Shown here piece by piece: positions 592 to 18,727 of a stretch of DNA of 64,000 bases (its first letter is position 1; every line of letters begins with the position of its first letter). The translations under genes were made by a program, and so were the position numbers. The DNA comes from Alteromonas salexigens (lineage in GTDB: Bacteria; Pseudomonadota; Gammaproteobacteria; Enterobacterales; Alteromonadaceae). Under the pieces are notes generated by a model. The model saw only the letters and a list, made by a program, of their open reading frames with translations. It made no database searches and had not been told where the DNA came from. Location of the stretch: positions 138,161 to 202,160 of the forward strand of contig NZ_JAOTJC010000013.1 of the NCBI RefSeq assembly GCF_025628895.1, in the 5' to 3' direction.

Positions 592-663
592 CCCCCCCGT
601 CACCACCGCGCAGGCGGTGGCCTCCTATGCGCGATAGCCGGACGTTGTGAAAGTCAAAAAAGC

Positions 664-773
664 TACCGTCACCCCGGCGTCAGTAGTATTTACCGTCATC
701 CCGGCGTCAGAAGTATTTACCGTCATCCCGGCGTCACTAGTATTTACCGTCATCCCGGCGCAGGCCGGGACCT
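664..773 (-). repeat. Left palindrome array, 27-bp period (copy 0)
   Basis: Units begin at 666, 693, 720 and 747, exactly 27 bases apart. The first three are half-units with one stem arm (CCGTCATCCCGGCGTCAG). The fourth, nearest the nuclease remnant, is a full palindrome with stem TCCCGGC/GCCGGGA. The orientation is opposite to that of the right-hand array at 1.0-1.19 kb. Confidence 0.9.
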
Positions 774-863
774 CCCAAACAGCCTGACTACCCAAAAACC
801 GCCCTCCTCTTACCCAGCTCAAAAAACTAAATTGTTTTTGAAAACACAAAAGGGGCTTTACGC

Positions 864-974
864 GTGAAAACGTAAAGGCTGAAATAACGTCATCGATAAT
901 GTAAATATCGGTTAATAGCAGAGGTTAACCCTGGTTAGTACGACTTATATCCTGTGCTACCGGCGTTTAGGTAA
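864..974 (+). pseudogene. GIY-YIG nuclease gene remnant with internal deletion
   Basis: The 5' end GCGTGAAAAC and the 3' end (TATCGGTTAATAGCAGAG, through a TAA stop) match the intact genes at 14799 and 17807. About 190 bases in between are missing, so the GIY-YIG core and catalytic residues are gone. The junction joins the first codons to the AAAGGCTGAA stretch that lies near codon 67 in the intact copies. The GTG start is kept, but the upstream in-frame ATG of the intact copies is not, which supports GTG as the true start of this family. It cannot encode a working nuclease. Confidence 0.8.
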
Positions 975-996
975 TAGATACGACACGGTTTCCTGA

Positions 997-1190
997 TGGA
1001 GGTCCCGGCCTGCGCCGGGATGACGGTAGCTTTGAGAAACGCCGGGTTGACGGTTGTCTGATGGAGGTCCCGGCCTCCGCCGGGATGACGGTAGCTATGA
1101 AGAGCGCCGGTGTGACAGTTACCAGATGGAGGTCCCGGCCTGCGCCGGGATGACGGTAGCTATGAGAAACGCCGGGATGACGGTAGCTAC
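997..1190 (+). repeat. Right palindrome array, 65-bp period (copy 0)
   Basis: Full palindromes GGTCCCGGCC..GCCGGGATGAC begin at 1001, 1066 and 1131. Each is followed, exactly 27 bases after its second stem arm, by a half-unit (arms at 1014/1041, 1079/1106, 1144/1171). Full and half units therefore alternate with a 65-base period, and the array ends in a half-unit. The outer end supplies the stop codon of the convergent gene beginning at 1444. Confidence 0.9.
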
Positions 1191-1444
1191 GACAGCTTCG
1201 CGGCTATTTTTTTCGGCAGGTATTTCTCTGCAGCTTTGCCGGTAACGGCCCACACCAGAACGGCAGACCATGCGAAAACCGAGAGACCGGCAGGCACACA
1301 TGCGATCGCTATTAGCTTGGCCTGTTTTCGGTTGAACAATAGCGCCAACCCTACAGGCAGAAACCACACAACCAATACCAACACACTCACCAGCGCCAGC
1401 TGGATACCCGTTACATCCTGAAATTGCGCTAAAAACTCGGTCAT
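1187..1444 (-). CDS. Small membrane protein, superinfection-immunity (Imm_superinfect) family
   Basis: An 85-residue protein with two predicted membrane segments, the first around VLVLVVWFLPVGLALLF and the second around LSVFAWSAVLVWAVTG, separated by a short basic loop. The pattern FLP..LAL followed by a W..VLVWA helix resembles the Imm_superinfect family, named after the phage T4 Imm protein; most chromosomal members are of unknown role. The ATG at 1444 is chosen over an in-frame ATG at 1459 because AGGAGT sits 6-7 bases upstream of it. The last codon and stop lie in the flank of the repeat array. Function is not shown by the sequence. Confidence 0.7.
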   Translation of the reverse strand: MTEFLAQFQDVTGIQLALVSVLVLVVWFLPVGLALLFNRKQAKLIAIACVPAGLSVFAWSAVLVWAVTGKAAEKYLPKKIAAKLS

Positions 1445-1685
1445 CGAAACACTCCTCATTGGTTATTGTTGAAGAGGTAGTCGGCGAATAACCGGTTTTA
1501 TTACAAATTATTTGAGAAATTTTTATAAATGATTGGCCAGTGGGAGATTAAGGCAGAGATGACATAGTGAATTAACAGCGCTAACTCACATTGCTCTAGT
1601 CGGCGAGCTATGGTTGCTGGTATATGAACCGCATTTGCTGCATGCTAGTAAAACTTGCAGGGAATAACACAAGAGAAAAATAACC

Positions 1686-2501
1686 ATGCACAAACTGTCT
1701 AAACTTTTACGTACTACTACCGTGATGGCCACACTGTTCTCGCCGCTGGCAATGGCGGACGACCACAGCACTCATACGACGGTAGATCACAGCCACCGCA
1801 GTGAAGCAAACCAGCAGCGCGATGAATTCCGCCAGCCGTACCGCACTTTGGCATTTTTCGGGGTGAAGCCTGAGCACAAGGTGATTGAAATCCTGCCTGG
1901 TGGAGGCTGGTACACAGAAATTCTTGCTCCTATGCTAAAAGAAGATGGCGAATTGATTGCGGCCCACTACTCTGCCAGTTCGCCATCGGAATACCGCAAA
2001 CGTTCGCGTAAGAACTTTGAAGAAAAGATGGCCGGTAACGACGCCGTGTACGGTAACGTGGTTATCCGCGACTTTGATCTGGACGGCGACCTGGACACCA
2101 CCAGCGCGAACGCCGATATGGTTTTAACGTTTCGTGGTCTGCATGGGTTACAAAATGCCGGTGACCTCGCCGCAGCATTTGACCGTTTCAATGCCATGCT
2201 GAAAGCCGGTGGTAAACTAGGCGTGGTTCAGCATCAGGCCCCGGAAGGCTATAATCCTATTCACACCGCCAAGAAGGGCTACCTGCCGAAGTCGCATGTC
2301 ATTGCTGTTGCCCGTGCCGCCGGCTTTGAACTGGTCGCCGAGGGTTATTTCCATAATAATCACAAAGACACCATTATTCAGGATAACGTAGAAGGCGGTG
2401 TGTGGACGCTGCCTCCCAACCTCAACACGGACACTGATAAAGAGAAATATGCAGCCATGGGGGAATCAAACCGCATGACCTTGCTGTTCAAGAAGCTATA
2501 A
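1686..2501 (+). CDS. Exported class I SAM-dependent methyltransferase
   Basis: The 271-residue product starts with a signal peptide (MHKLSKLL, hydrophobic core, cleavage near PLAMA-DD). The body is a Rossmann-type methyltransferase: VIEILPGGGWYTEILAPML is motif I, binding S-adenosylmethionine. ADMVLTFRGLHG and AGGKLGVVQHQAPEG fit later core strands. It resembles the predicted-methyltransferase family COG4798, which often carries a signal peptide. The substrate is unknown, and so is how an exported enzyme would obtain SAM. A His/Asp-rich segment follows the signal peptide. A strong hairpin lies between this gene and the next. Confidence 0.8.
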   Translation: MHKLSKLLRTTTVMATLFSPLAMADDHSTHTTVDHSHRSEANQQRDEFRQPYRTLAFFGVKPEHKVIEILPGGGWYTEILAPMLKEDGELIAAHYSASSPSEYRKRSRKNFEEKMAGNDAVYGNVVIRDFDLDGDLDTTSANADMVLTFRGLHGLQNAGDLAAAFDRFNAMLKAGGKLGVVQHQAPEGYNPIHTAKKGYLPKSHVIAVARAAGFELVAEGYFHNNHKDTIIQDNVEGGVWTLPPNLNTDTDKEKYAAMGESNRMTLLFKKL

Positions 2502-2510
2502 GCCCATGGC

Positions 2511-2537
2511 AGGCGCACCGGTGTCTCCGGTGCGCCT
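2511..2537 (+). terminator. Hairpin after the methyltransferase gene
   Basis: A perfect 11-base-pair stem (AGGCGCACCGG/CCGGTGCGCCT) with a 5-base loop lies 9 bases after the stop codon. There is no clear T-run, so it may act as a processing or attenuating hairpin instead of a full terminator. The next gene's GTG start is only 10 bases downstream. Confidence 0.5.
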
Positions 2538-2546
2538 AATCTAAGT

Positions 2547-3128
2547 GTGTGTCTGATAAAGCAAACGCTACCTTCCCTACTGATTTTATTGGGCCTGTTA
2601 ACACCCGGGAGCCTGGCCATGACCACTGAACCGAACACAAGCACCCATAACCTGGCTTTCACACAGCATAGCGAACGTGATCAATGGCGTATTGTGAACG
2701 ATACGGTCATGGGCGGGCGGTCAGTGGCGAACCTTCAATTCAGTGAAAAGGGGATGGTATTTTCCGGCCGCCTGTCGCTAGAAAACAACGGTGGCTTTGC
2801 CAGTGTACGGCGGAGCGACGCCGATTTGTCCTGGCAACGGGATAAGGCGGTACAGGTTACCGCTACCGGTGATGGCAGAACATATCAGTTCAGAGTGTAT
2901 ACCAAGCTCACACGGGATGGCGTGGCCTATGCTGCCAATCTGCCCACCCAGACCGGTGCCCGTGTTCAAATTACATTTTCTGAGGCCGACTTCTCACCAG
3001 TGTGGCGCGGCAGACCCGTACCCGACGCGCCTCCTCTGCACTTTGATGACGTACGTCAGCTTGGCTTTATGCTAGTGGATAAGCAAGCCGGCGACTTTCA
3101 GTTAACAGTAGAGTCTGTGGGCCAATAA
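2547..3128 (+). CDS. CIA30-like (NDUFAF1-type) exported protein
   Basis: The 193-residue product begins with a hydrophobic signal segment (LLILLGLLTPGSLA). The mature part has WRIVNDTVMGGRSVANL, the typical N-terminal signature of the CIA30 / NDUFAF1 family, followed by beta-rich sequence with NNGGFASVR and a C-terminal DDVRQLGFMLVDKQAGDFQL strand. In mitochondria the family assists complex I assembly; bacterial homologues are mostly uncharacterised jelly-roll proteins. The start is a GTG with no clear ribosome-binding site. A later ATG at 2620 would remove the signal peptide and is less likely. Confidence 0.8.
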   Translation: MCLIKQTLPSLLILLGLLTPGSLAMTTEPNTSTHNLAFTQHSERDQWRIVNDTVMGGRSVANLQFSEKGMVFSGRLSLENNGGFASVRRSDADLSWQRDKAVQVTATGDGRTYQFRVYTKLTRDGVAYAANLPTQTGARVQITFSEADFSPVWRGRPVPDAPPLHFDDVRQLGFMLVDKQAGDFQLTVESVGQ

Positions 3129-3154
3129 TCACAGTTCTGCGTCCACTCAGACTT

Positions 3155-3751
3155 TCAGTCTCTGTGCGCATGCTCAAGAGCCTGCTGATTCACCTCAGCC
3201 ACCAGTTCTGGAAAGAACGCTGCGAAGGTCTCCCGCAATTCCCTGTCATTGGTTGCCAGCTCGTCGGTGATCGTTGCGAATTCATTGGCAAATCTCACCC
3301 GCCGCGCAATATTGCTGATTGCCTGCAGGGTGCCATCCAGTGAAGCATAATGCTCAAACCAGTCCTGCGTAATAATCGCGCTTACCCGCTGTTGCATGAC
3401 AGGGGGCATAACCGGTAATTTTTCAGACAAGCGGGCATAAGCAAGGCGTTTAAACTCAGCAAAGGGCATCGCGTGGTGCTGTGACCAGGCTGTTATCAGA
3501 TAATGGTCGAACATCACATCCAGGGCGACGCCGGAAAATTTGCGGGTACGCCGGGAAAATTGCCGTCGGGCGTCCCGGACAAGCGGGTGCGAGTCGGTAA
3601 ACTTGTCTACCAGTAAGTGATTTTGCACACCAGCAAGCACGGCGTCAGTGGTGGCACCGGGCAGGCCTCCCTGCCGGAAATCGCCCAGCAGGTTGCCATA
3701 ATAAGAATCGCTGGTAGGCTGCGCCAGATAAAGATGTGCAAGGTAATTCAT
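3155..3751 (-). CDS. acpH: Acyl carrier protein phosphodiesterase
   Basis: A 198-residue protein starting MNYLAHLYLA, followed by GNLLGDF, a hallmark of AcpH (the family removes 4'-phosphopantetheine from holo-ACP). VQNHLLVDKFTDSHPLV and VMFDHYLI carry the conserved His and Asp residues expected of this metal-dependent, HD-related hydrolase. Length matches the E. coli enzyme. It sits alone on the minus strand, convergent with the CIA30-like gene. Confidence 0.9.
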   Translation of the reverse strand: MNYLAHLYLAQPTSDSYYGNLLGDFRQGGLPGATTDAVLAGVQNHLLVDKFTDSHPLVRDARRQFSRRTRKFSGVALDVMFDHYLITAWSQHHAMPFAEFKRLAYARLSEKLPVMPPVMQQRVSAIITQDWFEHYASLDGTLQAISNIARRVRFANEFATITDELATNDRELRETFAAFFPELVAEVNQQALEHAHRD

Positions 3752-3805
3752 GGAGGAATTATCCCCTACCCGACTCCCGAATGAAAGCGGACCAACCGCC
3801 AGGCG

Positions 3806-5689
3806 CTAGTTTCCAGCCTGTCCGGCAAATGTCAGCATGCTTTCTTTATGCAATGCTTTTACAAACTGGTTAAAGCGGGAGAAATCCGCGGCAGTCAGTG
3901 TCCGGGAGGGGATCTGCAATACCGTGGTGACTTTTAACACCTGTTGCCCGTCTTTTGGCTGCTGATGTTTGACCTGCCTTTGCAACGAACCAAATGCGTG
4001 CTGTAAGTCCAGCTTTTTGGGCGGTCGGTCGATATACCAGCCCTTTGGAAACGTCAGCGTGTAAGTGGACTTAACCCGGGAGCCGGGATAAAACACGTCG
4101 TACACAGTGTTATCAATACCAGAGGTAGATAGCTCATACTGAACCCAGGCGTCGGCTTCCTCCAGCGTGAACCGGCCCTCAGTCGTAAAGTAGGGTTCAA
4201 AGGAAGTGGCTGAGGCGCTTTTGAGCGTATCAGACAGGTTGTCGATCCCCTCAAACGTAAATGCCGGCGCCGCGCCGTCTGCCACCACACTTTGGTAAAG
4301 GTCGCTGGCCCACTCCTGGCGATCTTTCGCACTCAGTTTAGCGAGTTTTCCGCGAATCTGCCCCTCGTACGCGTTATGGTAGCTCACCTCCTGTTGTTCG
4401 GTTTGACCGCCATCCGGGGCAAAGTCGATGCGGGTATCGGTGGCCAGATCCCAGCGATAGGTTGAGGCCGGAATTTGCTCCAGTTCGCCCTTACCACTTA
4501 GTGAGAGCGCCACCCGGTTTTGGATCCAGTCGGCAATATCATCTGGCCCGGTATACGGATCAGTGGCATCCAGACAGCGAACGCCGTCCTCCACATCGAA
4601 GCACACCACCACGTGATCAAACGTATTCACCGCCGGTAACGTAATGTTATCGATATTACTTTTCTTCGTAGCAACCAGAACCGGGTCTGCATCCACGCCA
4701 ATATGGCGCAACATAGCCAACAGCAGTGCCGATTTGTCCTTACAATCGCCAAAACGGTTATTGATGGTTTCGTCAATATCGTGGGGCACAATGGCATGGC
4801 CATTTTCCGACATCGACACATAGCGGATATCTTTTGCCACAAACTCAAAAATAGCAGCGATTTGCGCCTCTTGTGTATCCTGACCTTCGATGAGGCGTGT
4901 TACCAGGCTTTCCAGTTGGCTGCTGTCCTTAATAGCATTGTTAAAACCGCGCAGCACTATCTGTTGCACCTCCTCCCAGCTGCGTAGCGTAGTCACCGAA
5001 ATATGATTGAGTACGTCCGGCCAGCTCACGTCCTCATCAGTTTCTGCAGGTGGTATATCGCTGCCGGTACACGTGATGCGGTTATCCTGCAGCTCGCAGT
5101 CAACTCTGGCACTGTTATTTACTACGAAAAAAGGACGCTGCTCCGTCCAGGTAGCCTCAAACTGATAATTGAGAATATTGGCGTGCACCTGGGGATAGTA
5201 TTTTGACGACCAGTAGTCACGCTGCTCGGTAAATGGGTGGGTGAGTGTGTACTGGATCAGCGTCGCTCCGCCAGCCTGCAACCCCGGATAAGAGACCACT
5301 GCCTGACGGGTATCCGTAAAAGTATTGTATGTGTCACTTTCAATTTCTTTGATGTTATCCGGTGTGGCGGCCGTAAACTCACCATCAGGACTTATGGCAC
5401 CAGCGGTTATTACGTTAAGAGTTTCAATATCCGGGCGGTAATACACCGACTCGAAACCACTGTCCTGGACCACTGCCGTGTTAGGGTAAAACCAGATTTG
5501 GGTAACGGTGGTGACAACCTGATCTGCCTGCACGTCAACGCTCACCCGTTTATCCAGCGACGTTAACGCGTCGGTCTCAGGCGCGACCTTCGCCAGCGCC
5601 GTTTTGGCCTGTTCAAGCAAGGGAGAATTGGCTATCGCTACCGGGCTAAAAATAAAAAGTAACAGTGCACAGCCAGTAAATCTATTCAT
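3806..5689 (-). CDS. DUF3857 / transglutaminase-like exported protein
   Basis: A 627-residue protein with an N-terminal signal peptide (LLLFIFSPVAIANS), an N-terminal DUF3857 beta domain and a central transglutaminase-like domain. A Cys-His-Asp triad is visible: RFGDCKDKS, FDHVVVCF and CLDATDPYTG. The C-terminal third is beta-rich. These proteins are probably periplasmic and their substrates are unknown. The ATG at 5689 fits an AAGGA site 10 bases upstream better than a TTG at 5698. The start overlaps the 3' end of the upstream membrane-protein gene by 8 bases, which suggests translational coupling. Confidence 0.85.
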   Translation of the reverse strand: MNRFTGCALLLFIFSPVAIANSPLLEQAKTALAKVAPETDALTSLDKRVSVDVQADQVVTTVTQIWFYPNTAVVQDSGFESVYYRPDIETLNVITAGAISPDGEFTAATPDNIKEIESDTYNTFTDTRQAVVSYPGLQAGGATLIQYTLTHPFTEQRDYWSSKYYPQVHANILNYQFEATWTEQRPFFVVNNSARVDCELQDNRITCTGSDIPPAETDEDVSWPDVLNHISVTTLRSWEEVQQIVLRGFNNAIKDSSQLESLVTRLIEGQDTQEAQIAAIFEFVAKDIRYVSMSENGHAIVPHDIDETINNRFGDCKDKSALLLAMLRHIGVDADPVLVATKKSNIDNITLPAVNTFDHVVVCFDVEDGVRCLDATDPYTGPDDIADWIQNRVALSLSGKGELEQIPASTYRWDLATDTRIDFAPDGGQTEQQEVSYHNAYEGQIRGKLAKLSAKDRQEWASDLYQSVVADGAAPAFTFEGIDNLSDTLKSASATSFEPYFTTEGRFTLEEADAWVQYELSTSGIDNTVYDVFYPGSRVKSTYTLTFPKGWYIDRPPKKLDLQHAFGSLQRQVKHQQPKDGQQVLKVTTVLQIPSRTLTAADFSRFNQFVKALHKESMLTFAGQAGN

Positions 5690-6719
5690 CGAGACCAAAT
5701 CCTTTTGCGTCGTTTATGAAGTCTTCACGATATTTTTCCATAATGCCCGGGCTGGCTTTCAGGTAACCAACCAGCTCTACAAATTGCCCGTCGCCAGCCT
5801 GGATTTGCTTTGCGACATACAGCTCATCATCACCACTGTCAGTTGCCGCACACTCTATCCAGGTCACTGTCTGGGTACTGTTTTCAAGAAAACGGGTGGT
5901 GTAGTCACACTCCGGTTGATCCATATCGGCGACAAAGCTGTCATAGCGGTTGTTAGCCAGGCTGTCCGTTTCATCGTTCTTACTATAAATAAATACGGCA
6001 TACCACATGTCCCTTAGCGGGCCTACCAACTCATACTTCGACGTACCGTCAGTTACCTGACCTATTTCTGCAGGCTTCCAGCCTGTCTGACTTAAATCCA
6101 GTCTGAAGGGTAACCCTTCAGCGCGCACCGACGTGTGTGGCTCGTAGGACTCCGTCATCGCCAGCTTCACTTCCTCATGCAGCAGAATAGCGAACACGCC
6201 AGCCAGCAATGGCGTGAATAAGACAACGGCCAGCCACTCTATAACGTTGAAACCGGCTGAGCGGGGCATAACAGGTTTGTTTTCGCAACGCCTGCGAATA
6301 CGGTTCATACGCATATGCAGCGGCAGAAACCAAACGATAGTCGCGATAAACACGGTCAACTGCACCATCATCGACAGATCGACTGCTGTGGAGATGTTGG
6401 ATGTGATGGCTAAGCCGAAGAAACCTGCCATCCACAGGTAGTCTACCAACTGCGGCCAGCGTCTGACTTGCAGGCGTGACTGGACATCCCGCACGGCCTG
6501 GAAAAACCGCGGAAGTGCAAAGACCTGTGCGATAGCAATAAAAGGCACAAATACCCACCACAGCGGGCTGGCTGGCTGTTCGCTGAGACGTTTACAGTCC
6601 CGCGCCGCCAGGTAGAACCATACCCCCAGATACAAGCCGGCGGTTGCAAACACCAGCAGCGCTTCCAGTAATACATGACGGGGTGGCGCCGTTACAGGCG
6701 TGACACCTGGCTTTTCCAT
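5682..6719 (-). CDS. Multi-spanning membrane protein of unknown function
   Basis: A 345-residue protein with about five hydrophobic segments in the first 190 residues, e.g. ALLVFATAGLYLGVWFYLA, PLWWVFVPFIAIAQVFALP and WLAVVLFTPLLAGVFAILL. A soluble C-terminal domain of about 150 residues follows, with paired cysteines. No family was recognised with confidence. Its 8-base overlap with the DUF3857/transglutaminase gene implies co-translation, so a shared envelope role is a reasonable inference. Confidence 0.7.
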   Translation of the reverse strand: MEKPGVTPVTAPPRHVLLEALLVFATAGLYLGVWFYLAARDCKRLSEQPASPLWWVFVPFIAIAQVFALPRFFQAVRDVQSRLQVRRWPQLVDYLWMAGFFGLAITSNISTAVDLSMMVQLTVFIATIVWFLPLHMRMNRIRRRCENKPVMPRSAGFNVIEWLAVVLFTPLLAGVFAILLHEEVKLAMTESYEPHTSVRAEGLPFRLDLSQTGWKPAEIGQVTDGTSKYELVGPLRDMWYAVFIYSKNDETDSLANNRYDSFVADMDQPECDYTTRFLENSTQTVTWIECAATDSGDDELYVAKQIQAGDGQFVELVGYLKASPGIMEKYREDFINDAKGFGLDE

Positions 6720-6968
6720 ACTTCAAGTCCTTCTGCGGCTATTCTTATATGTGAATGGGCTGCCCTTGAACGGGTAACTTAGCAGGCACTACTTGTCCTA
6801 TCCCATCATTCACGTGATGACCTGTAATAAGGTTATACCAGAAAGTGCGCGATCCTGACCAGTACTAGCCCGTTTCCCGGCTGACATAACTTTCACTTGC
6901 ACGCGGTGGCGATATCCGTAGTATTGCGCCGCGAATCCGCTATGCGAAATCTTTGGGAGTACACAGCC

Positions 6969-7745
6969 ATGTCAGACACCACCAGTGAAATTCCTGCGTT
7001 ATTAACGCCAGTGAGTGAATTTCTGTACTGCGCCACGCCGCAGCGCTGGATTGATGAGGCCAGTAAACCAGAGAATTTACGGGTGTTACTGACCGACCAT
7101 CTGATTTGTGAGCTGAAGGCGGCACAGTCTGCCATGTACCTGTTACGGCGCTACATTGCCGACGAGCAGACCAGCGAACAGCTGCTTAGCTGGCTGCGCC
7201 CCTACGAAGACTTTACGTATCGCCATATCGGTAACTGGCAGGACCTGCACACCCGCCACCTGTCCAAATCACAAATCAATACTGACTCCCTCTCGCCCTT
7301 TCAGAAAAGCCTGCTGGACAAGATGGTGATGCTGATAAAAGAAGAGCTCCACCATTTCTATCAGGTGCTGGAAATTATGCATGCAATGGGCATGGAATAT
7401 GAGTCAGTCACGTCCAGTCGCTATGCGAACGGCATGTTGCGCCATGTGCGTACGTATGAGCCCCAAAAGCTTATTGATAAACTGATTTGTGGCGCCTACA
7501 TCGAGGCCCGCTCCTGTGAACGCTTTGCGTCACTTATTCCCCATGTGGCCCCTGAGCTGGGTAAGTTCTATTTGTCATTATTACGCTCGGAAGCGCGTCA
7601 TTTCGAAGACTATCTTACGCTGGCTGCGGATATTGCCGAAGGCCCCATTGATGACAGGGTGGCCTTATTCGGCGAAGTAGAGCAAAGCCTGATCGAATCT
7701 CCGGACCGCGAATTTCGCTTCCACAGTGGTCCGCTGGCTGCCTGA
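6969..7745 (+). CDS. miaE: tRNA-(ms2io6A)-hydroxylase
   Basis: A 258-residue diiron protein matching MiaE, which hydroxylates the isopentenyl group of ms2i6A at tRNA position 37. The expected carboxylate/His ligand motifs are present: ICELKAAQSAMYLLRRY, KEELHHFYQVLEIM, GAYIEARSCERF and LRSEARHFEDYL. The ATG at 6969 is preferred because GGGAG lies 9 bases upstream; the longer frame from 6897 adds an unsupported N-terminus. The gene stands alone, with about 250 bases of gene-free DNA upstream. Confidence 0.93.
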   Translation: MSDTTSEIPALLTPVSEFLYCATPQRWIDEASKPENLRVLLTDHLICELKAAQSAMYLLRRYIADEQTSEQLLSWLRPYEDFTYRHIGNWQDLHTRHLSKSQINTDSLSPFQKSLLDKMVMLIKEELHHFYQVLEIMHAMGMEYESVTSSRYANGMLRHVRTYEPQKLIDKLICGAYIEARSCERFASLIPHVAPELGKFYLSLLRSEARHFEDYLTLAADIAEGPIDDRVALFGEVEQSLIESPDREFRFHSGPLAA

Positions 7746-7869
7746 TCGAATCTGCCCACTATTTCACCAATACTTGTTGACGAAACCATCAGCATCATAG
7801 AGACTGATGTAAATAAAGTGTTAACTTTTAGTAAATTAACATTTCTGGCAGCGAGTGAAGGTGGCAAGT

Positions 7870-8469
7870 ATGATCCTGAATCATCTGGTGGGCATTTATA
7901 CCCATCCAAAAGAAGAATGGCAGAACATTGACCGGCAACATGAGAATTACTTTTACGCTCTAAGTCATATTGCAGTTATTGCGTTAATCCCTGCGTTAAT
8001 TGCCTACTATTCTGCAGCCCACCTCGGCTGGAGTATTGGAGCAGGTGACCTTATCCGGCTAACTCAGGAAAGTGCGCTGGGCATGGCAATTGGGATGTAT
8101 GTGGGTTTGGTCGCAGGGGTCATTGGTCTGGCGGTGCTCATCCATCAGCTGGCCAACGCCTTCGATGCCTCGCCTACCCACACTCAGTCTCTCGAACTGG
8201 CTGCTTATACCGCGACGCCCCTGTTTATGGCTGGTTTTGGGGGTCTTTACCCGGAACTGTGGTTTGTGATGACCGCCATACTGGCTGGGGTGACCTACTC
8301 GGTCTACCTGCTCTACTCCGGCGTCCCCATCCTTATGCACATGCCAGAAGAAAAAGGCTTTATCTATGCCAGTTCGGTGGTGACCTGCGGGTTAGTACTG
8401 CTGGTTATTCTGATGGCGGGTTCGGTGATTTTATGGAGTCTGGGACTGGGGCCGGTTTACGTACAGTAA
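7870..8469 (+). CDS. Yip1-domain inner-membrane protein
   Basis: A 199-residue protein with five hydrophobic segments (IAVIALIPALIAYYSAA, GMYVGLVAGVIGLAVLIHQ, ELWFVMTAILAGVTYSVYLLY, VVTCGLVLLVILMAGSVILW and others). The start MILNHLVGIYTHPKEEWQNI and the overall pattern match bacterial Yip1-domain proteins (PF04893). The function of bacterial members is not established. The ATG at 7870 has AAGGTGG 5 bases upstream; a GTG at 7855 is the alternative. Confidence 0.8.
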   Translation: MILNHLVGIYTHPKEEWQNIDRQHENYFYALSHIAVIALIPALIAYYSAAHLGWSIGAGDLIRLTQESALGMAIGMYVGLVAGVIGLAVLIHQLANAFDASPTHTQSLELAAYTATPLFMAGFGGLYPELWFVMTAILAGVTYSVYLLYSGVPILMHMPEEKGFIYASSVVTCGLVLLVILMAGSVILWSLGLGPVYVQ

Positions 8470-8487
8470 CTTACACCACTTGCATAA

Positions 8488-8514
8488 AAAAAGCCGCGCA
8501 ATTGCGCGGCTTTC
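8488..8514. terminator. Bidirectional terminator between the Yip1 gene and purF
   Basis: The palindrome AAAGCCGCGC-AATT-GCGCGGCTTT is flanked by an A-run on the left and a T-rich stretch on the right, so it can serve both convergent genes. Confidence 0.88.
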
Positions 8515-8517
8515 TTA

Positions 8518-10044: not shown

Positions 10045-10058
10045 CTGAGTTACCTATA

Positions 10059-10547: not shown

Positions 10548-10713
10548 TGTCTCATAATCAGCGTTGTGCTCCCGACGTTATGCGCAGGAGACCCATGGCG
10601 AGATGGCGCGCATTCTATCAGAAGCCTGCATGATTACCAATCAGTAATGTGTAACCAAACGTGCCGGGGCGGGACAAGATAACAGCTTGCGATGCAGCCT
10701 CTGCTGGTGCCGC

Positions 10714-11289: not shown

Positions 11290-11298
11290 CTCGCGCTC

Positions 11299-12582
11299 CT
11301 AATCTGTAAACTTCTCAGTATGCAACGCTAATACATCTGCCACAGTAAGGAAAGAGCCAAACACTAAAATCATGTCTGATTGGCTGCATTTAGTGCGGGC
11401 ATGCTGATAGGCATCCACTACCTGCGCAAATGTTGCGCTGTTTTGGCGCTCGGTTTCCGGTAATACGGCTTGCAGAGATTCACCGTCCAACCCCCTTGGC
11501 CCGCTCGTACCGGCCAACAACCACTGTGCATGAAGCCCCTCGAAAGGCGCCAGCGTCGCAGCGACCGATTTATCTTTAAGCATCCCCGCCACGATGTACA
11601 AATTGTCGTACTGATAGTCCTTCAGCCAACGCCGGATATTGGCGGTGGCCTGGGGGTTATGCCCCACATCTACAACCACCCGGGGCGCTTCCTGTAACTG
11701 CTGACGCCGTCCGGGTAAGGACGTGCGGGAGATAATTCGAGTCAGCGCTTCTCTGTCCTGCAGCCAGCCCAGCTGGTACAGTGCCGCAATTGCAGTTGCT
11801 GCATTCTGTAGCGGAATACCAGGGTACGGCAGCTGCGTCAGCTTGTGCTCCTTAAGCTGCCACTGCCAACCTTCGCTGTGCTCAGATATGTTGAAATCCT
11901 GTCCGGCCCACACCGCGTCGGCCTGAAAACGCTCCACCTCAGCTAGTAAACTAGCCGGCGGCTCACGCTCACCAATAACCGCTTTGATCCCCGGACGCAT
12001 TATACCGGCTTTTTCGACTGCAATTTTATCGCGGGTATCACCCAGCCAGTCCTGATGATCAAGATCGATGGTCGTGATTACGGCAAGATTGGGGGTAATT
12101 ATATTGGTGGCATCGAGCCGTCCGCCCAACCCTACTTCAAGGATCACCACATCTGGTTGCCACGCGTACATCATTACCAGCGCGGCCAGGGTTCCAAACT
12201 CAAAATAGGTCAGACTGATATCGCCCCGGGCCTCATCAACGGCAGTGAACGCCTCACAAAAAGCGGCGTCCGCAGCGGGCTTACCGTTTACTCGTACCCG
12301 CTCACGATAACTCAGCAGATGTGGCGAGCTGTACACGGCCACGGATTTACCCTGCTCAATTGCTGTTTGTTCGAGGAACGCGCAGGTTGTGCCTTTGCCG
12401 TTGGTTCCCGCTACGGTGATCACCGTACTGGCGGCAAAATCGAGACCTAGCTTATCAGCAACCTGCTGACATCGTTCCAGGCCCAGATCAATCGCTGTGG
12501 GATGAATAGATTCGAGATACTGCAACCACTGCGTCAGCGTTCGATGCGCCGGCGCAATGGCTGAAACGTCAGAGTGAACCAC
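11299..12582 (-). CDS. folC: Bifunctional folylpolyglutamate synthase/dihydrofolate synthase
   Basis: A 427-residue Mur-ligase-fold enzyme that makes dihydrofolate and adds glutamates to folates. The P-loop GTNGKGTT lies at residues 59-66; YSSPHLLSYRERVRVNG and EVGLGGRLDATN are typical FolC motifs, and VVDVGHNPQA is in the C-terminal domain. The start is GTG, sharing its G with the accD stop (TAGTG), so translation is coupled to accD. Confidence 0.96.
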   Translation of the reverse strand: MVHSDVSAIAPAHRTLTQWLQYLESIHPTAIDLGLERCQQVADKLGLDFAASTVITVAGTNGKGTTCAFLEQTAIEQGKSVAVYSSPHLLSYRERVRVNGKPAADAAFCEAFTAVDEARGDISLTYFEFGTLAALVMMYAWQPDVVILEVGLGGRLDATNIITPNLAVITTIDLDHQDWLGDTRDKIAVEKAGIMRPGIKAVIGEREPPASLLAEVERFQADAVWAGQDFNISEHSEGWQWQLKEHKLTQLPYPGIPLQNAATAIAALYQLGWLQDREALTRIISRTSLPGRRQQLQEAPRVVVDVGHNPQATANIRRWLKDYQYDNLYIVAGMLKDKSVAATLAPFEGLHAQWLLAGTSGPRGLDGESLQAVLPETERQNSATFAQVVDAYQHARTKCSQSDMILVFGSFLTVADVLALHTEKFTD

Positions 12583-13427
12583 TAGTTGGGTCGGTGCAGC
12601 TTAGACAGCAGGCTATGCAACTTGTCACGCATCTGGCGACGGTCAACAATCATATCGATGGCGCCCTTCTCCACCAAAAATTCACTACGCTGGAAGCCTG
12701 GCGGCAAGGTTTCACGTACCGTTTGTTCAATAACCCGCGGGCCGGCAAAGCCAATCAACGCTTTAGGCTCAGCGATGTTAATGTCACCCAACATGGCCAG
12801 GCTGGCTGAGACGCCGCCCATGGTAGGGTCGGTCAGTACCGAAATATACGGCAAGCCTTTTTTACTTAATTTAGCCAGTGCAGCGGACGTTTTGGCCATT
12901 TGCATCAGCGACATCAGCGCTTCCTGCATACGCGCCCCACCACTGGTAGAGAAACAAATTAATGGCGTATTGTGTTCAATGCAGGATTCCACGGCTTTAA
13001 CAAAACGCGCGCCTACTACCGACGCCATAGAGCCTCCCATGAAGGCAAATTCGAAGCTTGCTACCACGACTGGCATGCCCTTCATTTTGCCTTTCATCAC
13101 AATCAGAGCATCTTTTTCATTAGTACTCTTTTGTGCGGCCGAGATACGGTCTTTGTAGCGCTTGGAATCTTTAAACTTCAAGATATCTTGCGGCTCAAGG
13201 TCGGCGCCTATTTCTTCGCGGTCTTGTTCATCTAACAGGCTGTCGATACGACGACGGGCACTGATACGCATGTGATTGTCGCATTTCGGACAAACTTCCA
13301 GCTGCTTCTCCAGGTCGGTTTTGTAAAGCACGGCCTGGCATTTGCTGCATTTGGTCCAGATGCCTTCAGGTACATTCCCTTTTGTAGAGGTTTGTGTACG
13401 GGGAAGGATTTTTTGAATCCAGCTCAT
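12582..13427 (-). CDS. accD: Acetyl-CoA carboxylase carboxyltransferase subunit beta
   Basis: A 281-residue subunit that, with AccA, transfers carboxyl from biotin to acetyl-CoA to form malonyl-CoA. The N-terminal Cys4 zinc ribbon is intact (C27, C30, C46, C49). The crotonase-fold core has [30 protein letters not shown] and a glycine-rich acyl-CoA site ([14 protein letters not shown]). A 257-base region upstream, before truA, probably holds its promoter. Confidence 0.97.
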
Positions 13428-13684
13428 GAAAAACGAATCCTTTTATCTGTGTCGCCGCGTAAGCTGCTTAATCGTATAGTGTTTGTGCAGAACGCGTCGC
13501 GAAAAAATTAACGCAATGGTATTGCGCTGTATTAGACCACAATAGCGATAAATGCGAAAAACAAAACTGGTCTAAGAAGTTAGCTGTAGGCAGCCTTTTT
13601 TGCAACTTTTCGCCGACATTTTGAGCATTAATGCTGAATTAGCCTGATTATCCTGGCTAATTCAGATGACACACCCGGATTTGA

Positions 13685-14476
13685 TCAGTTGTCAGCTAAA
13701 AACAACGGCCCTAACGGACGCGGGGGTAATTCGATGGGCGCCGGATAGGTCACATGGACGAGGTACAAGCCATTGGGTTTTGCCGTGGCAGCCGCCGCGG
13801 TCCGATCTTTCATTGCCAGCAATTCCGCTATCCATTCAACCGGCTGCTCCCCTGCCCCCACTTCAACCAGTGAACCGGTGATGTTGCGAACCATATGATG
13901 CAGGAAGGCGTTGGCCCGAATATCGATGATCACGTAGTTGCCCTGGCGGGAAACGGACACGTGAGTGACATTGCGAAAAGGCGTTTTAGACTGGCACAGG
14001 GATGCCCGAAACGAGGTGAAGTCCTGCTCGCCCAGCAAAGCCTGCGCGGCCTCGTGCATGCGATCCGCGTCCAGCGGTTTATAGATGTGGGTTACACCGC
14101 CGTGGAGAATTGCCGGACGGGTTTTGTTGTTGAAGATCACATAGCGGTAACGCCGGTGCGTCGCCGAAAAACGGGCATGAAAATCACTATCGACTTCCGC
14201 GCTCCAGTTGACTGCAATAGAGTCCGGCAGGTTGGCGTTGACGCCCAACGTCCAGGCGCGTTCAGGACGGTATTCATCACAATCGAAATGCACCACCTGA
14301 CCTGTGGCATGGACGCCGGCATCGGTTCGCCCGGCGCACTGAACCTGAATGGGCTGATTAGCGACCTTCGACAGCGCATTTTCAAGGTATTCCTGTACGC
14401 TGGGTACATCCTTTTGCCGCTGCCAGCCATAGTGTGCCGCACCATCATACTCAATGCCTAAGGCAATGCGCCCCAT
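13685..14476 (-). CDS. truA: tRNA pseudouridine(38-40) synthase
   Basis: A 263-residue enzyme forming pseudouridine at positions 38-40 of the tRNA anticodon stem. The catalytic Asp is D52 in [32 protein letters not shown] and [14 protein letters not shown] are also family signatures. In many gammaproteobacteria truA directly follows the asd/usg-fimV genes. Here about 4.25 kb of repeats, two GIY-YIG genes and an antiporter gene lie between its start and the fimV stop. Confidence 0.97.
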
Positions 14477-14571
14477 AAGTCCGCCCCTGTCTGCAAAAAT
14501 CGGCTAAGTGTAGTCATGCAGCAGGCGCGTGACAAGGCCTGTAGGTATAAAAACAGGCGTCCGTGCGTACC

Positions 14572-14705
14572 TATCGTCATCCCGGCGTCAGAATTAACTA
14601 CCGTCATCCCGGCGTCAGTATCAATTACCGTCATCCCGGCGTCAGTATCAATTACCGTCATCCCGGCGTCAGTATCAATTACCGTCATCCCGGCGAAGGC
14701 CGGGA
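14572..14705 (-). repeat. Left palindrome array, 27-bp period (copy 1)
   Basis: Five units start at 14574, 14601, 14628, 14655 and 14682, exactly 27 bases apart. The four outer units are half-units of the form CCGTCATCCCGGCGTCAG plus an AT-rich spacer. The innermost is a full palindrome with stem TCCCGGC/GCCGGGA. The array lies 98 bases upstream of the truA start and reads away from it. Confidence 0.92.
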
Positions 14706-14798
14706 CCACACAAACAAGCAGACTGATCTAAAACTCTACTTTTCTAACCCAGTGCAAGAAACTAAATTGTTGCTGAACACATGAAAAGGACTTTATGC

Positions 14799-15095
14799 GT
14801 GAAAACACCGAGCATTTATATTCTTACCAATCATCACAATACGACGTTGTATATTGGCGTCACCAGTAACCTTACCCAGCGAATTTATCAACACAAAAAT
14901 AAGCTTGTAAAAGGGTTTAGTGCTAAATACAACCTTACTAAACTCGTATATTTCGAGCAATTTGAAGATATGGAAAACGCTATCCTAAGAGAAAAAAGGC
15001 TGAAGAGGTGGCATCGACAGTGGAAGAATCGGTTAATAGCAGAGATTAATCCTGATTGGCGCGACCTATACCCTGAGCTACTGGGTTGTAGATAA
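14799..15095 (+). CDS. Solitary GIY-YIG nuclease-domain protein, copy 1
   Basis: A 98-residue protein made only of a GIY-YIG domain. Visible features are SIYILT then LYIGVTS (the GIY..YIG strands, YIG at 18-20), catalytic-type R28 in the following helix (QRIYQH), E65 in AILREKRLK and N77 near the end. This is the small solitary type (COG2827/UPF0213-like), whose members are often annotated as putative endonucleases with no proven substrate. The GTG at 14799 is chosen over the ATG at 14781: AAAGGA lies 8 bases upstream of it and the remnant copy keeps only GTG. Palindrome arrays flank it on both sides in opposite orientation. Confidence 0.88.
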   Translation: MKTPSIYILTNHHNTTLYIGVTSNLTQRIYQHKNKLVKGFSAKYNLTKLVYFEQFEDMENAILREKRLKRWHRQWKNRLIAEINPDWRDLYPELLGCR

Positions 15096-15116
15096 TTGAT
15101 ACTTCACGATTACCTG

Positions 15117-15725
15117 ATGGAGATCCCGGCCTTCGCCGGGATGACGGTAGGTATTGCTGACGTCGGGATGACGGGCTATTTTTAACTCGAAGAAACGCGT
15201 CATTGCGGCGGAGGCCGCAACCTCCATCGTCTAAGCGCAATATCAAAAATTACTCTTCTCGCGTGTCCAATGACAGTTGATGAGGTCCCGGCCTACGCCG
15301 GGATGACGGGCTATTTTTAACTCGAAGAAACGCGTCATTGCGGCGGAGGCCGCAATCTTCATCGTCTAACCGCGATTTCGAAAATCACTCTTCTCGCGTG
15401 CACAATGACAGTTGATGAGATCCCAGCCTTCGCCGGGATGACGGGCTATTTTTAACTCGAAGAAACGCGTCATTGCGGCGGAGGCCGCAACCTCCATCGT
15501 CTAAGCGCAATATCAAAAATCACTCTTCTTGCGAGCACAATGACAGTTGATGAGGTCCCGGCCTTCGCCGGGATGACGATAGTATTTATAAGTCAGCCTG
15601 TTTGGGAGGTCCCGGCCTGCGCCGGGATGACGGTAGATTCTATCAGTCAGACTGTTTGGAAGATCCCGGCCTTCGCCGGGATGACGGTAGGTATTGCTGA
15701 CGCCGCAATGACGGTAGCTTTTTAA
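15117..15725 (+). repeat. Right palindrome array with 135-bp higher-order repeat (copy 1)
   Basis: Full palindromes begin at 15122, 15284, 15419, 15554, 15608 and 15662, with spacings of 162, 135, 135, 54 and 54, all multiples of 27. Each of the first three long intervals contains a second palindrome in opposite orientation (CGTCATTGCGGC..GCCGCAA at 15198, 15333 and 15468, 135 bases apart) and near-identical filler such as CTATTTTTAACTCGAAGAAA. The array ends in a half-unit with its arm at 15702, about 40 bases from the convergent antiporter gene's stop. Confidence 0.92.
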
Positions 15726-15760
15726 ATCTCCTACCGTCTAGTAACTGCGACTATATATTC

Positions 15761-17269
15761 TCAGGTATTCATTTTTTCAACCTGTTCTTCGACCGGCTTT
15801 CCGTGCTCATTAAACTTCGCAATATCAGCGTTTGATGATTCCCATTCCTTGCGCTCTTCGTCTGTTGCTTTAGGTGAGAACCAACCAACGTAGGCATAAA
15901 ATATTCCTATCAAGGGCGCCGTCCAACAAGCAAATGCCAGGGGGATATACAGCAAGTTTTCTAAATTATCACCAGAAATACCCAGTCCCAGAGCGGATAT
16001 AACAAACGCCCCACCGGCATTCCAGGGAATAAGGGGAGACATTAAGGTTCCGCCTTCCTCCACTGCCCGTGACAGATTCAGCGTAGAATAACCCATGCCT
16101 CGATAAACGGGGGAATACATGCGCCCTGGTAGTGCAACTGACAAATACGGGTCGCCTGCCACCAGATTGGTTGAAAACGCAGTTCCTACCGCGGCAGCCT
16201 GCGTACCAGCAAACGATTTCGCTTTGCTTTTTATCGAATTAATTATACTTTTCAGACAGCCCGTGGTTTCTAACGCACCACCAAATGCAAGGGCGATAAA
16301 CACCAACGAAATGGTCCACATCATGGATTGAATTCCACCACGATTAAGCAAGCTATCTATCTCAGTTATGTTCGTTTCGATGGAGTAGCCGTTGTTGGCA
16401 TAATCAAAAACAGCCTGCAGGCTCTGGCCTTGCGCGATCATAGCGAATGCACCGCCGACCACAACACCCACGAATAGCGAAGGCAATGGCGGTAATTTCC
16501 TAAGCGCCAGTCCCATGACCACCAGAGCCGGTAGCAACGCCCATAGAGAGATATCAAAATTGTTTTCTAATGTGGTTGTGATCCCTTCTATTTTTTCAAA
16601 CGACACGCTCTGAGTATCAATAACAAAAAAGCCGACCCCAAGATAAATTAGAAACGCAATTACCATAGCCGGAATAGTAGTGGCCATCATATTTTTAATG
16701 TGGGAAAACACGTCTGTTCCGGTCACAGCGGGAGCAAGATTAGTCGTATCAGAAAGTGGCGATACCTTATCCCCGAAAAATGCGCCCGACACCACCGCGC
16801 CGGCTGTCCAGTACATGGGTATTTCAAACCCTCCACCGATGCCCATGAGTGCCAAACCGACCGTACCGACACTGCCCCAGCTTGTCCCGAGAGATACTGC
16901 CACCACTGCACATATCACCATGGCAGCTGGCAGGAAAATCTCGGGAGATAATGTTTTCAGCCCATAGTAAATGATGGTCGGCACGGTCCCGCTCGCAATC
17001 CACGTACCGATAATCATCCCTACCACAATCAGTACGCTTACTGCCGGTAACGCTACATGTATGACTTTGAAAATTCCTGCACGAATGTCTTCCCACGTAA
17101 GCCCAAGGTAAATACCGACAAGGCTAGCCAGCGCCACCCCAATCGCAAGAGGGATATGGGGCTCAAATACGCCAAAATAGAATATCTGTGTGCCAAGTAT
17201 TATCAGTGTCAGAATAACAGGCGTTAATGCAAGTGAGAGGCGTGGGGTAACGTGCTGTTCATCTGTCAT
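15761..17269 (-). CDS. nhaC: NhaC-family Na+/H+ antiporter
   Basis: A 502-residue membrane protein with about 11-12 hydrophobic segments, typical of NhaC-type antiporters, which exchange external protons for internal Na+. LGTSWGSVGTVGLALMGIG, GDKVSPLSDTTNLAPAVTGTDVF and VAGDPYLSVALPGRMYSPVY are the conserved half-helix motifs of the family. GGAAGAAG precedes the ATG. It lies between two near-identical GIY-YIG elements and interrupts the usual truA-fimV junction, so it looks like cargo of, or a passenger next to, those elements. No riboswitch was recognised in the 180 bases upstream. Confidence 0.92.
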   Translation of the reverse strand: MTDEQHVTPRLSLALTPVILTLIILGTQIFYFGVFEPHIPLAIGVALASLVGIYLGLTWEDIRAGIFKVIHVALPAVSVLIVVGMIIGTWIASGTVPTIIYYGLKTLSPEIFLPAAMVICAVVAVSLGTSWGSVGTVGLALMGIGGGFEIPMYWTAGAVVSGAFFGDKVSPLSDTTNLAPAVTGTDVFSHIKNMMATTIPAMVIAFLIYLGVGFFVIDTQSVSFEKIEGITTTLENNFDISLWALLPALVVMGLALRKLPPLPSLFVGVVVGGAFAMIAQGQSLQAVFDYANNGYSIETNITEIDSLLNRGGIQSMMWTISLVFIALAFGGALETTGCLKSIINSIKSKAKSFAGTQAAAVGTAFSTNLVAGDPYLSVALPGRMYSPVYRGMGYSTLNLSRAVEEGGTLMSPLIPWNAGGAFVISALGLGISGDNLENLLYIPLAFACWTAPLIGIFYAYVGWFSPKATDEERKEWESSNADIAKFNEHGKPVEEQVEKMNT

Positions 17270-17447
17270 ACTTCTTCCTTATATTTGACACGGGTGACGT
17301 AAGTCATCTTCTGGTTTAAAAAGCGTACTTTGAGTAATTGCCATCAAATCAGTGATTGTTTGATACCAGTCGATACCTACGGGGCAAGGGGGAAAATAGT
17401 TCTGGAAAGAACAGGACAAACTACTCGTTGTGCCGTTTAATAAACGC

Positions 17448-17717
17448 TACCGCCATCCCGACGTAGGCCGGGACCTCCTAAACAGCTTGACTGAGATGCT
17501 ATCGTCATCCCGGCGTAGGCCGGGACCTCATCAACTGTCACTGGTCACGCGTGAAGAGTGATTTTCGATATTGCGCTTAAACGATGGAGGTTGCGGCCTT
17601 CGCCGCAATGACGCGTTCTTCGAGCTAAAAACAGCCCGTCCTACCGGCGTCAGCAATACCCACCGTCACCCCGGCGCTGCTAATAACTATCGTCATCCCG
17701 GCGAAGGCCGGGACCTC
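17448..17717 (-). repeat. Left palindrome array (copy 2)
   Basis: Units start at 17450, 17502, 17636, 17663 and 17690. The last two steps are exactly 27 bases; the first two (52 and 134) are 2 and 1 bases short of multiples of 27. A palindrome of the TGCGGC/GCCGCA type in opposite orientation lies at 17587-17612. The outer units at 17450 and 17502 are full palindromes, 17636 and 17663 are half-units, and 17690, next to the gene, is full. Confidence 0.88.
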
Positions 17718-17806
17718 CCAAACAAGCAGACTGATCTAAAACCCTACTTTTCTTACCCTGCGCAAGAAACTAAATTGTTGCTGGCCACATGAAAAGGACT
17801 TTATGC

Positions 17807-18103
17807 GTGAAAACACCGAGTATTTATATTCTTACCAATCATCACAATACGACGTTGTATATTGGCGTCACAAGTGATCTTATCCAGCGAATTTATCAAC
17901 ACAAAAATAAGCTTGTAAAAGGGTTTAGTGCTAAATACAACCTTACTAAACTCGTATATTTCGAGCAATTTGAAGATATGGAAAACGCTATCCTAAGAGA
18001 AAAAAGGCTGAAGAAGTGGCATCGACAGTGGAAGAATCGGTTAATAGCAGAGATTAATCCTGGTTGGCGCGATTTATATCCTGAACTTCTGGCTTGTAAG
18101 TAA
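17807..18103 (+). CDS. Solitary GIY-YIG nuclease-domain protein, copy 2
   Basis: A 98-residue protein nearly identical to copy 1. Differences seen are N24D and T26I after LYIGVTS, R70K, a D-to-G change in the NP.WRDLYPEL tail and the last residues (LACK against LGCR). All catalytic-type residues (the two Tyr strands, R28, E65, N77) are kept, so both copies look functional. The GTG start is chosen as in copy 1. Leader and tail sequences also match, pointing to recent duplication. An 11-unit palindrome array starts about 25 bases downstream. Confidence 0.88.
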   Translation: MKTPSIYILTNHHNTTLYIGVTSDLIQRIYQHKNKLVKGFSAKYNLTKLVYFEQFEDMENAILREKRLKKWHRQWKNRLIAEINPGWRDLYPELLACK

Positions 18104-18124
18104 TAGATACGTCACGCTTACCTG

Positions 18125-18727
18125 ATGGAGGTCCCGGCCTTCGCCGGGATGACGGTAGCATCTCTCAGTCAGACTGTTTGGAAGGTCCCGGCCTGCGCCG
18201 AGATGACGGTCACATCTATCAGTCAGTCGGTTTGGGAGGTCCCGGCCTTCGCCGGGATGACGGTAGCATCTCTCAGTCAGACTGTTTGGAAGGTCCCGGC
18301 CTTCGCCGGGATGACGGTAGCATCTCTCAGTCGGCCTGTTTGGGAGGTCCCGGCCTTCGCCGGGATGACAATAGCATCTATCAGTCATGCTGTTTGGGAG
18401 GTCCCGGCCTTCGCCGGGATGACAATAGCATCTATCAGTCGGCCTGTTTGGGAGGTCCCGGCCTTCGCCGGGATGACGGCAGCATCTCTCAGTCAGACTG
18501 TCAGGAAGGTCCCGGCCTTCGCCGGGATGATGGTAGCATCTCTCAGTCAGACTGTTTGGGAGGTCCCGGCCTTCGCCGGGATGACAATAGCATCTATCAG
18601 TCGGCCTGTTTGGGAGGTCCCGGCCTGCGCCGGGATGACGATAGCATCTCTCAGTCATGCTGTTTGGGAGGTCCCGGCCTGCGCCGGGATGACGATAGCT
18701 ATTAGTGACGCCGGGATGACGGTAGCA
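18125..18727 (+). repeat. Right palindrome array, 11 x 54 bp (copy 2)
   Basis: Eleven full units begin at 18130, 18184, 18238, 18292, 18346, 18400, 18454, 18508, 18562, 18616 and 18670, exactly 54 bases apart, followed by one 27-base half-unit (arms at 18683 and 18710). Each unit has a 7-base-pair stem TCCCGGC/GCCGGGA with a CTTC or CTGC loop, then a spacer resembling GATAGCATCTCTCAGTCAG. Spacers repeat, so this is not a CRISPR array. The array ends only a few bases from the fimV stop codon on the opposite strand, so it is the 3' untranslated region of fimV. Confidence 0.95.

Follow-up and report, generated by a model that had tools for sequence, protein, structure and literature searches.

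A small GIY-YIG nuclease gene bounded by inverted CGTC-REPs: a candidate mobile element and a candidate enzyme for a superfamily of bacterial palindromes

In systems of repetitive extragenic palindromes (REPs) and their RAYT enzymes (REPtron, REPIN), a small gene for a single enzyme lies between inverted palindromes, and gene-free palindrome dimers are found dispersed. The enzyme is of the Y1/HUH type and the palindromes carry the tag GTAG. Another group, the CGTC-REP superfamily, includes dRS3 of Neisseria and RPE-4 and RPE-6 of Rickettsia; the survey describing it reports no dedicated transposase for these repeats (Di Nocera, 2013; PMC3733652). Here we describe a 64-kb stretch of Alteromonas salexigens DNA (called the window throughout) in which clusters of palindromes surround three copies of a gene for a GIY-YIG nuclease. 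The arrangement is like that of REP/RAYT systems in having a small single-enzyme gene between inverted palindromes and gene-free dimers, but the enzyme is GIY-YIG only and the tag is CGTCA. A small mobile element is probably present three times in the window. It would consist of a gene for a single-domain GIY-YIG nuclease with inverted CGTC-REPs on either side, the nuclease being the dedicated enzyme of these repeats.

Judged by sequence, the repeats of the window fit the published superfamily, and are thus already described as repeats (PMC3733652). Common to both are a GTCA(T) tag outside the stem, a loop of 4–5 nt and a short tail. We also liken to the repeats here the 7–9 bp stem, the C-rich tail, the intergenic position, the dimers and heterodimers, and the Neisseria clusters reported for CGTC-REPs (PMC3733652). 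The differences are that the first position of the window stem is mostly A opposite C, that the tail is mostly CCTC and not CCA, and that a GIY-YIG gene lies between the repeats here, whereas the survey reports no dedicated enzyme (PMC3733652). The original prediction of an undescribed REP-like mobile system is well supported as to the association and the mobile unit, but not as to the novelty of the repeats. In the window the loop is a GNAG tetraloop, the second stem position is T-A, and the tag is CGTCA in most copies. A stem of 8–9 bp with A-T in the first two pairs is a trait of the superfamily; the window stems have 7 pairs, and A-T is common at the first positions over the flanking pairs of 62 related loci. 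Over 112 flanking palindromes, the base preceding GTC was C in 77, T in 25, A in 6 and G in 4. The loop classes in 91 loci included GNAR4 (44), CTTG5 (21) and long loops (18), and tails over 572 palindromes included CCA (206), CTC (83) and CTA (56). Among the open-access papers listed, judged on titles and the starts of abstracts, none links GIY-YIG with REPs. One table in PMC9465073 names a RAYT gene and a GIY-YIG gene with no link drawn between them.

The main palindrome of the window is 22 bases long, GTCATCCCGGCGNAGGCCGGGA. With up to three mismatches it has 25 matches, all in three clusters (four at 749-1154, seven at 14684-15685 and 14 at 17452-18693), and in 100 dinucleotide shuffles of the window the mean was 0.00. 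A structure-based detector, which requires the GTCA tag and a stem of at least 7 pairs but accepts any stem sequence, returned 26 hairpins, 25 of them inside the three loci, and 0 in each of 10 shuffles. These 25 hairpins are not the same set as the 25 pattern matches; the detector gains sister stems and loses degenerate copies. The outlying hairpin (599..620, + strand) has the sister stem CCACCGC in the same tag and loop frame as the others, and precedes the first full palindrome by about 130 bp. Every one of the three clusters contains the GIY-YIG gene, intact in two and decayed in one. In all three, the upstream palindrome nearest the gene is on the + strand and the downstream CCCGGC-type palindromes are on the − strand, so that the tags point outward and the tails face the gene. 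The prediction of three nuclease genes, the first decayed, framed by outward-facing palindromes is thus borne out, with 25 of 25 palindromes in the gene-holding clusters. That the copies also share one order holds for the orientation, the gene and CCTGATGGA, which is common to all three clusters, but the make-up of the arrays differs.

The same pairing recurs well beyond this genome. Relatives of the gene were taken from named genomes (29 loci), 147 genomes of the organism's own family, 200 of Pseudomonadota and seven further genomes, and from 118 and 121 genomes of the phyla of two metagenome-assembled genomes (MAGs) titled Bacteroidetes and Chloroflexota, respectively. A 21-member profile splits the family (at least 72 bits, 177 loci) from other loci (at most 57 bits, 56 loci). 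Removal of 14 near-duplicates left 163 family loci, and removal of those with short flanks left 155 for hairpins and 157 for flank repeats; L064 and L071 were set aside in a single analysis only. An inverted hairpin pair (+ upstream, − downstream, within 250 bp) flanks the gene in 54 of 155 family loci, which come from at least three phyla; when the flanks were shifted outward by 400 and 900 bp, the counts were 1/147 and 0/142. Any hairpin was present at 96 of 155 loci vs. 24/147 and 9/142 after the same shifts. Low-scoring loci had a pair in 2 of 55 and any hairpin in 4 of 55, both pairs belonging to decayed family members (L033, L099). With these two set aside, the true paralogs had an inverted CGTC pair in 0/53 and any hairpin in 2/53. 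The pair was found in all samples: own family 15/26, named genomes 10/26, Pseudomonadota 13/45, Bacteroidetes-MAG phylum 8/28, Chloroflexota-MAG phylum 7/25 and other genomes 1/5. A test that makes no assumption about palindromes gave a similar picture: the 200-bp flanks formed an inverted repeat (score of at least 14) at 87 of the 157 family loci, against 2/147 and 0/140 after shifting, and in 5.1% when flanks of different family loci were paired at random. Taken together, a hairpin or an inverted repeat accompanies 122 of 157 family loci (shifted, 22/147 and 8/141; low-scoring, 12/55). The recurrence of this pairing across many distant bacteria makes the nuclease the best candidate for the agent that spreads the repeats.

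In Neisseria gonorrhoeae, a family member lies within a dense dRS3-type array (L301:2109-3690 and L340:770-2111; 2.17-Mb records filed as plasmids), and the rest of the 6.3 and 3.3 kb read has no such palindrome. The gene of Sinorhizobium sp. C101 (L336:1308-2140) stands amid CCTC-tagged repeats like CTCATTCCTGTGCTTGTCACAGGAATCCAG, for which several related records have 20–31 match places.

Genomes with the gene hold more palindromes. The pattern GTCATYCYN{9,13}RGRATC was used for the phylum counts. Among the 200 Pseudomonadota genomes (G000 set aside), the median was 15 copies with the gene (n = 41) vs. 2 without (n = 158; p = 7e-10), and 10 or more copies were present in 23/41 and 19/158, respectively. 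The medians in the Bacteroidetes-MAG phylum were 11 with the gene (n = 50) and 2 without (n = 68; p = 6e-9), with 10 or more copies in 28/50 and 11/68; the negatives include nine genomes of this phylum with a best E of 1e-15 to 1e-20. In the organism's own family, where a class-specific pattern was used, at least three copies were found in 15 of 29 genomes with the gene vs. 7 of 118 without. Two genomes with proteins of 33–39% identity (G015, G105) were left out of these positives, and counting both gives 15/31 vs. 7/116. The original prediction expected related genomes with the nuclease to be enriched for the palindrome and most palindromes to be in genomes that have it. The medians and the family counts agree with the former, and for the latter, 1516 of the 1976 matches in the Bacteroidetes-MAG phylum fall in the 50 of 118 genomes that bear the gene.

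At up to two mismatches, the search gave 52 palindromes in the source genome (3.55 Mb in 17 contigs) and 0 for the reversed control. C1 carries two clusters of them, C9 three, C12 one (counted as one) and C15 the three of the window, which makes nine. Four of the nine contain the nuclease gene or a remnant, including a second decayed gene outside the window (C9:44.5-45.7 kb); no nuclease gene was found by protein search in the other five. One array (L038) includes a run of N, so palindrome counts may be low. Sister palindromes with the stems TTGCGGC, CCCTCGC and CCACCGC share one frame with the main type. A gene-free heterodimer of 109 bp joins a CCCGGC palindrome to an inverted TGCGGC palindrome over a 63-bp spacer; the loci read contain eight strict copies, of which the window and L041 have three each and L036 and L037 one each, and a heterodimer with a 72-bp spacer occurred once (L040). 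For the Y1 transposase, there was no PF01797 match in the source genome at E 0.001, although the same search was positive in 5 of 14 control genomes, and RAYT as the driver was therefore rejected for this genome. At L041:1420-3250, about 1.3 kb with no nuclease-gene match is framed by inverted arrays of the same kind, a composite block like that of the antiporter described below.

The palindromes also mark the ends of the unit that is shared between loci. Of 214 right-hand and 142 left-hand comparisons between loci from different contexts that reach the palindrome edge, homology stops within −3 to +8 bp of its outer side in 171 and 96, respectively. Where a pair flanks the gene (62 loci), CGTCAT predominates on the tag side, often with T for the first C, and ATCCA on the tail side; the palindrome ends 58 bp before the domain and starts again 37 bp after it (medians). 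Among 117 matches to the tetraloop frame collected without a demand for pairing, 90 were paired at 7/7, and this paired set comprises 31 distinct stems. Two-sided changes were seen at all seven pairs in a subset of 18 sequences, which was chosen from paired copies and is illustrative only. The 124 arms of the flanking pairs include 40 distinct 7-nt arms. The tag, fold and tail are kept while the sequence of the stem varies. The stem sequence is unlikely to be the recognised feature, given the 40 distinct arms, the dimers that join two stems, and near relatives that differ in stem.

The element is absent from orthologous sites in related genomes. In the window, the block that holds copy 2, an antiporter gene and copy 3 (14567-18727) is flanked by fimV and truA. 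The truA locus was read in 29 of the 39 other genomes matched; 19 have a fimV-like match within 1.5 kb, all 29 lack the antiporter and the palindrome array, and eight show isolated unrelated hairpins or none of note. In Azospirillum lipoferum 4B the element lies inside the suf operon, between sufB and sufC; three relatives that were read lack it there, and A. thermophilum is a fourth without the element, by coverage. Three filled alleles on Sphingobium plasmids were aligned with four empty ones (TYG64, TYG74, TYG72 and TYG65). The empty alleles of TYG64 and TYG74 retain one palindrome with a tag at both sides, which in TYG64 is made up exactly of the outer half of each flanking palindrome. Likewise, Sinorhizobium K101 has, in an empty site read from raw sequence, one double-tagged palindrome (one tag being CTCA) where S. 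meliloti Ak57 carries the element. A double-tagged empty allele of this kind was present in two of four plasmid comparisons. Double-tagged palindromes are otherwise rare (17 of 572 entries, both strands counted).

The two intact open reading frames match PF01541 (E 4.5e-17 and 1.4e-16). They encode 104 aa from an ATG, or 98 aa from a GTG 18 nt downstream, which is the length of database entry P0003. The GIY-YIG domain spans residues 11–82 of 104; a further Pfam match is only weak and overlapping, and the Pfam search found no separate DNA-binding domain in the 104-aa protein. Residues Y24, G26, R34, H38 and E71, which we take to be those of the active site, are invariant among 21 family proteins, and Y13 is present in at least 90%. 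The predicted structure has a pLDDT of 90.8, and the nearest solved folds, with modest scores, are UPF0213 (1zg2), the N-terminal domain of UvrC, and Slx1. UvrC and Slx1 are repair or branched-DNA nucleases. UPF0213/YhbQ proteins have the same Pfam domain, a similar size and the nearest solved structure, but profile A1 separates the family (at least 72 bits) from the other loci (at most 57 bits). The GIY-YIG catalytic domain, the mobile setting and the empty sites also recall homing endonucleases of the I-TevI type. Unlike these, the present nuclease is a single domain of 98–104 aa with no further DNA-binding domain, and no intron or intein setting was recognised. The two intact window genes differ at 15 of 315 bases (nonsynonymous dN 0.025, synonymous dS 0.158), and the low ratio suggests selection on the protein, the events being few. 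This query alone matches 1091 clustered proteins at E 1e-10; no match was found in phages at the same threshold.

The mechanism that we favor would have the nuclease partner CGTC-REPs as the Y1 protein RAYT partners GTAG-REPs. The enzyme would recognise the tagged hairpin or cruciform through its structure and tag, not its stem sequence, and would nick or cut at or near the loop or the tag. The element, or a bare dimer, might then be copied into the break by repair, with the palindrome arms serving as homology. Gene-free dimers and tandem arrays would be non-autonomous by-products. More tentatively, such elements may form a separate class that crosses phyla, in which a lone GIY-YIG nuclease reads tag plus hairpin whatever the stem sequence and the palindromes are the ends; this class could then be the source of CGTC-REPs (dRS3, RPE and many GTCAT..ATCC repeats), with the asymmetry of tag and tail recording the target-facing and element-facing sides.

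Several results weigh against an element with its own enzyme. Palindrome-rich genomes without the gene exist, namely the 19 of 158 and 11 of 68 with 10 or more copies given above. Within genera the copy-number contrast is positive in nine, negative in three and tied in one (p = 0.07), and shared ancestry may therefore account for part of the signal. Individual loci enter several of the end comparisons, which are not independent; any alignment would break off once the last common motif had passed; and homology extends more than 30 bp beyond the palindrome edge in 21 left and 7 right comparisons. At empty sites there is no palindrome in Sphingobium TYG72 and TYG65, in two aligned alleles of Shinella, or at the sufB-sufC site of the three Azospirillum relatives read, and no target-site duplication was seen in the alignments read. 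The double-tagged empty alleles may be scars of deletion between repeated arms, or they may be pre-insertion targets. The gene of A. lipoferum is flanked by whole dimers, so that the tags there point toward it. No hairpin or flank repeat was found automatically at 35 of 157 family loci. Most of these carry, by eye, repeats of the form GTCATTGCGAG..GCAATC or GTCATTCTGAG..GAATC, which lie outside the rules of the detector; a few (L095, L098) have no repeat by eye. Of 53 low-scoring loci, 10 also have inverted flank repeats: two are decayed members of the family, seven have palindromes of other types and one is unclear. As a control, the low-scoring loci are clean for the inverted CGTC pair once L033 and L099 are set aside, but not for flank repeats generally. 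Lastly, loop class is weakly clustered on the protein tree, with 37 changes vs. 41.2 when shuffled (11 of 200 shuffles as low), on a tree of 94 columns that is poorly resolved. The idea that protein subfamilies pair with different palindromes has accordingly only weak support: close clades do have loop types in common, and paralogs seem to lie by other palindrome types at seven loci, but the number of changes is little below that of the shuffles.

Those seven loci (L143, L174, L175, L177, L181, L183 and L185) carry paralog GIY-YIG genes (34–49 bits) near inverted repeats of the types CCTGAGCTTGTCGAAGG and CTCGTCCTGAGG..CCTCGAAGGACGAGG. The paralog subfamily and its palindromes may be a second enzyme-palindrome pairing.

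How else could the association have arisen? The gene might be a passenger, hitch-hiking in REP clusters that another enzyme or replication slippage has spread and without action on the palindromes itself. REP clusters generally attract insertions, and the gene-free clusters of the source genome and of genomes without the gene fit such a history. A passenger, however, would hardly be linked to palindromes of different stems in distant phyla, within units of homology that end at the palindromes, and its inverted setting would not be expected to persist. The lack of a Y1 transposase match in the source genome and the low dN/dS between the two window copies also speak against it, and we consider it improbable. 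Still harder to credit is a role on the side of the host, in which the nuclease would resolve or prune REP cruciforms without spreading them, a countermeasure kept nearby in the manner of SbcCD. The resemblance to UPF0213, UvrC and Slx1, the last two being nucleases of repair or branched DNA, fits such a role. Yet a gene that is multi-copy, decaying, absent at orthologous sites and lodged inside palindrome pairs does not look like a host function, and it goes with more palindromes rather than fewer.

The empty alleles raise another alternative. A homing-type endonuclease could cut gene-free double-tagged palindromes in the loop, and repair would then insert the gene with a full palindrome at each side, so that the unit of movement would be the gene. 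The empty alleles of TYG64, TYG74 and K101 are just such single double-tagged palindromes; that of TYG64 is composed of the outer halves of the flanking palindromes, and this form is rare elsewhere. The same product would nonetheless result from deletion between direct repeats in the arms. The empty sites without a palindrome in Shinella, Azospirillum and two Sphingobium strains are at odds with homing, and the dispersed gene-free dimers are left unexplained. We regard homing as unlikely, though less so than the other two alternatives. Since 2013, CGTC-REPs have been recorded in many bacteria with no enzyme to account for them. The reading of the nuclease as their dedicated enzyme offers a candidate that is tied to the repeats in position, orientation and copy number. 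The protein is small, specific and expressible, which makes the question of CGTC-REPs directly testable. It would also provide a name for a large set of genes annotated as 'GIY-YIG nuclease family', and, if the reading is true, would show that REP-type repeats can be maintained by a nuclease fold that is not HUH.

The three copies in the window are made up as follows. Copy 1 begins with a left array of 27-bp half-palindrome units (664..748, + strand; family D4 of the repeat analysis), followed by the full upstream palindrome (749..770, +; a pattern match) and by a leader with the decayed GIY-YIG remnant (771..1000, +). The remnant has 55% identity across 42 residues and four stops (three TAA and one TAG). 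Compared with copy 2, identity is 81% in the leader (663-871) and 77% in the 3′ part (874-1053). The right array (1003..1190, −) consists of 65-bp units carrying three inverted palindromes, with a half-palindrome at its end.

In copy 2, a left array of four 27-bp half-palindrome units (14567..14683, +) precedes the full upstream palindrome, with its outward tag and gene-facing tail (14684..14705, +). The intact nuclease gene (14781..15095, +) encodes 104 aa, or 98 aa from the GTG at 14799. After the first downstream palindrome, which is inverted (15124..15145, −), come the gene-free 109-bp heterodimers with stems TGCGGC and CCCGGC and the 63-bp spacer (15199..15577; two strict and one degenerate, D8), and then two more inverted palindromes with a terminal half-palindrome (15610..15725, −). 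A Na+/H+ antiporter gene (15761..17269, −) lies between copies 2 and 3. The left array of copy 3 (17448..17691, +) consists of a degenerate palindrome, one heterodimer (17504-17612) and half-palindrome units. It is followed by the full upstream palindrome (17692..17713, +) and the intact gene of 104 aa (17789..18103, +). The right array (18132..18727, −) has eleven inverted palindromes in 54-bp units (D1) and a terminal half-palindrome, and its terminus adjoins the stop codon of the fimV-like gene. The make-up of the arrays thus varies: 27-bp half-palindrome units stand on the left of copies 1 and 2, and the right-array units are of 65 bp in copy 1, 135 and 54 bp in copy 2, and 54 bp in copy 3. 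The outermost array units are half-palindromes cut at the loop, at both sides of the clusters (664-748, 14567-14683, 1170-1190 and 18700-18727). A small gene with a superinfection immunity domain (PF14373; 1187-1459 of the window) adjoins copy 1.

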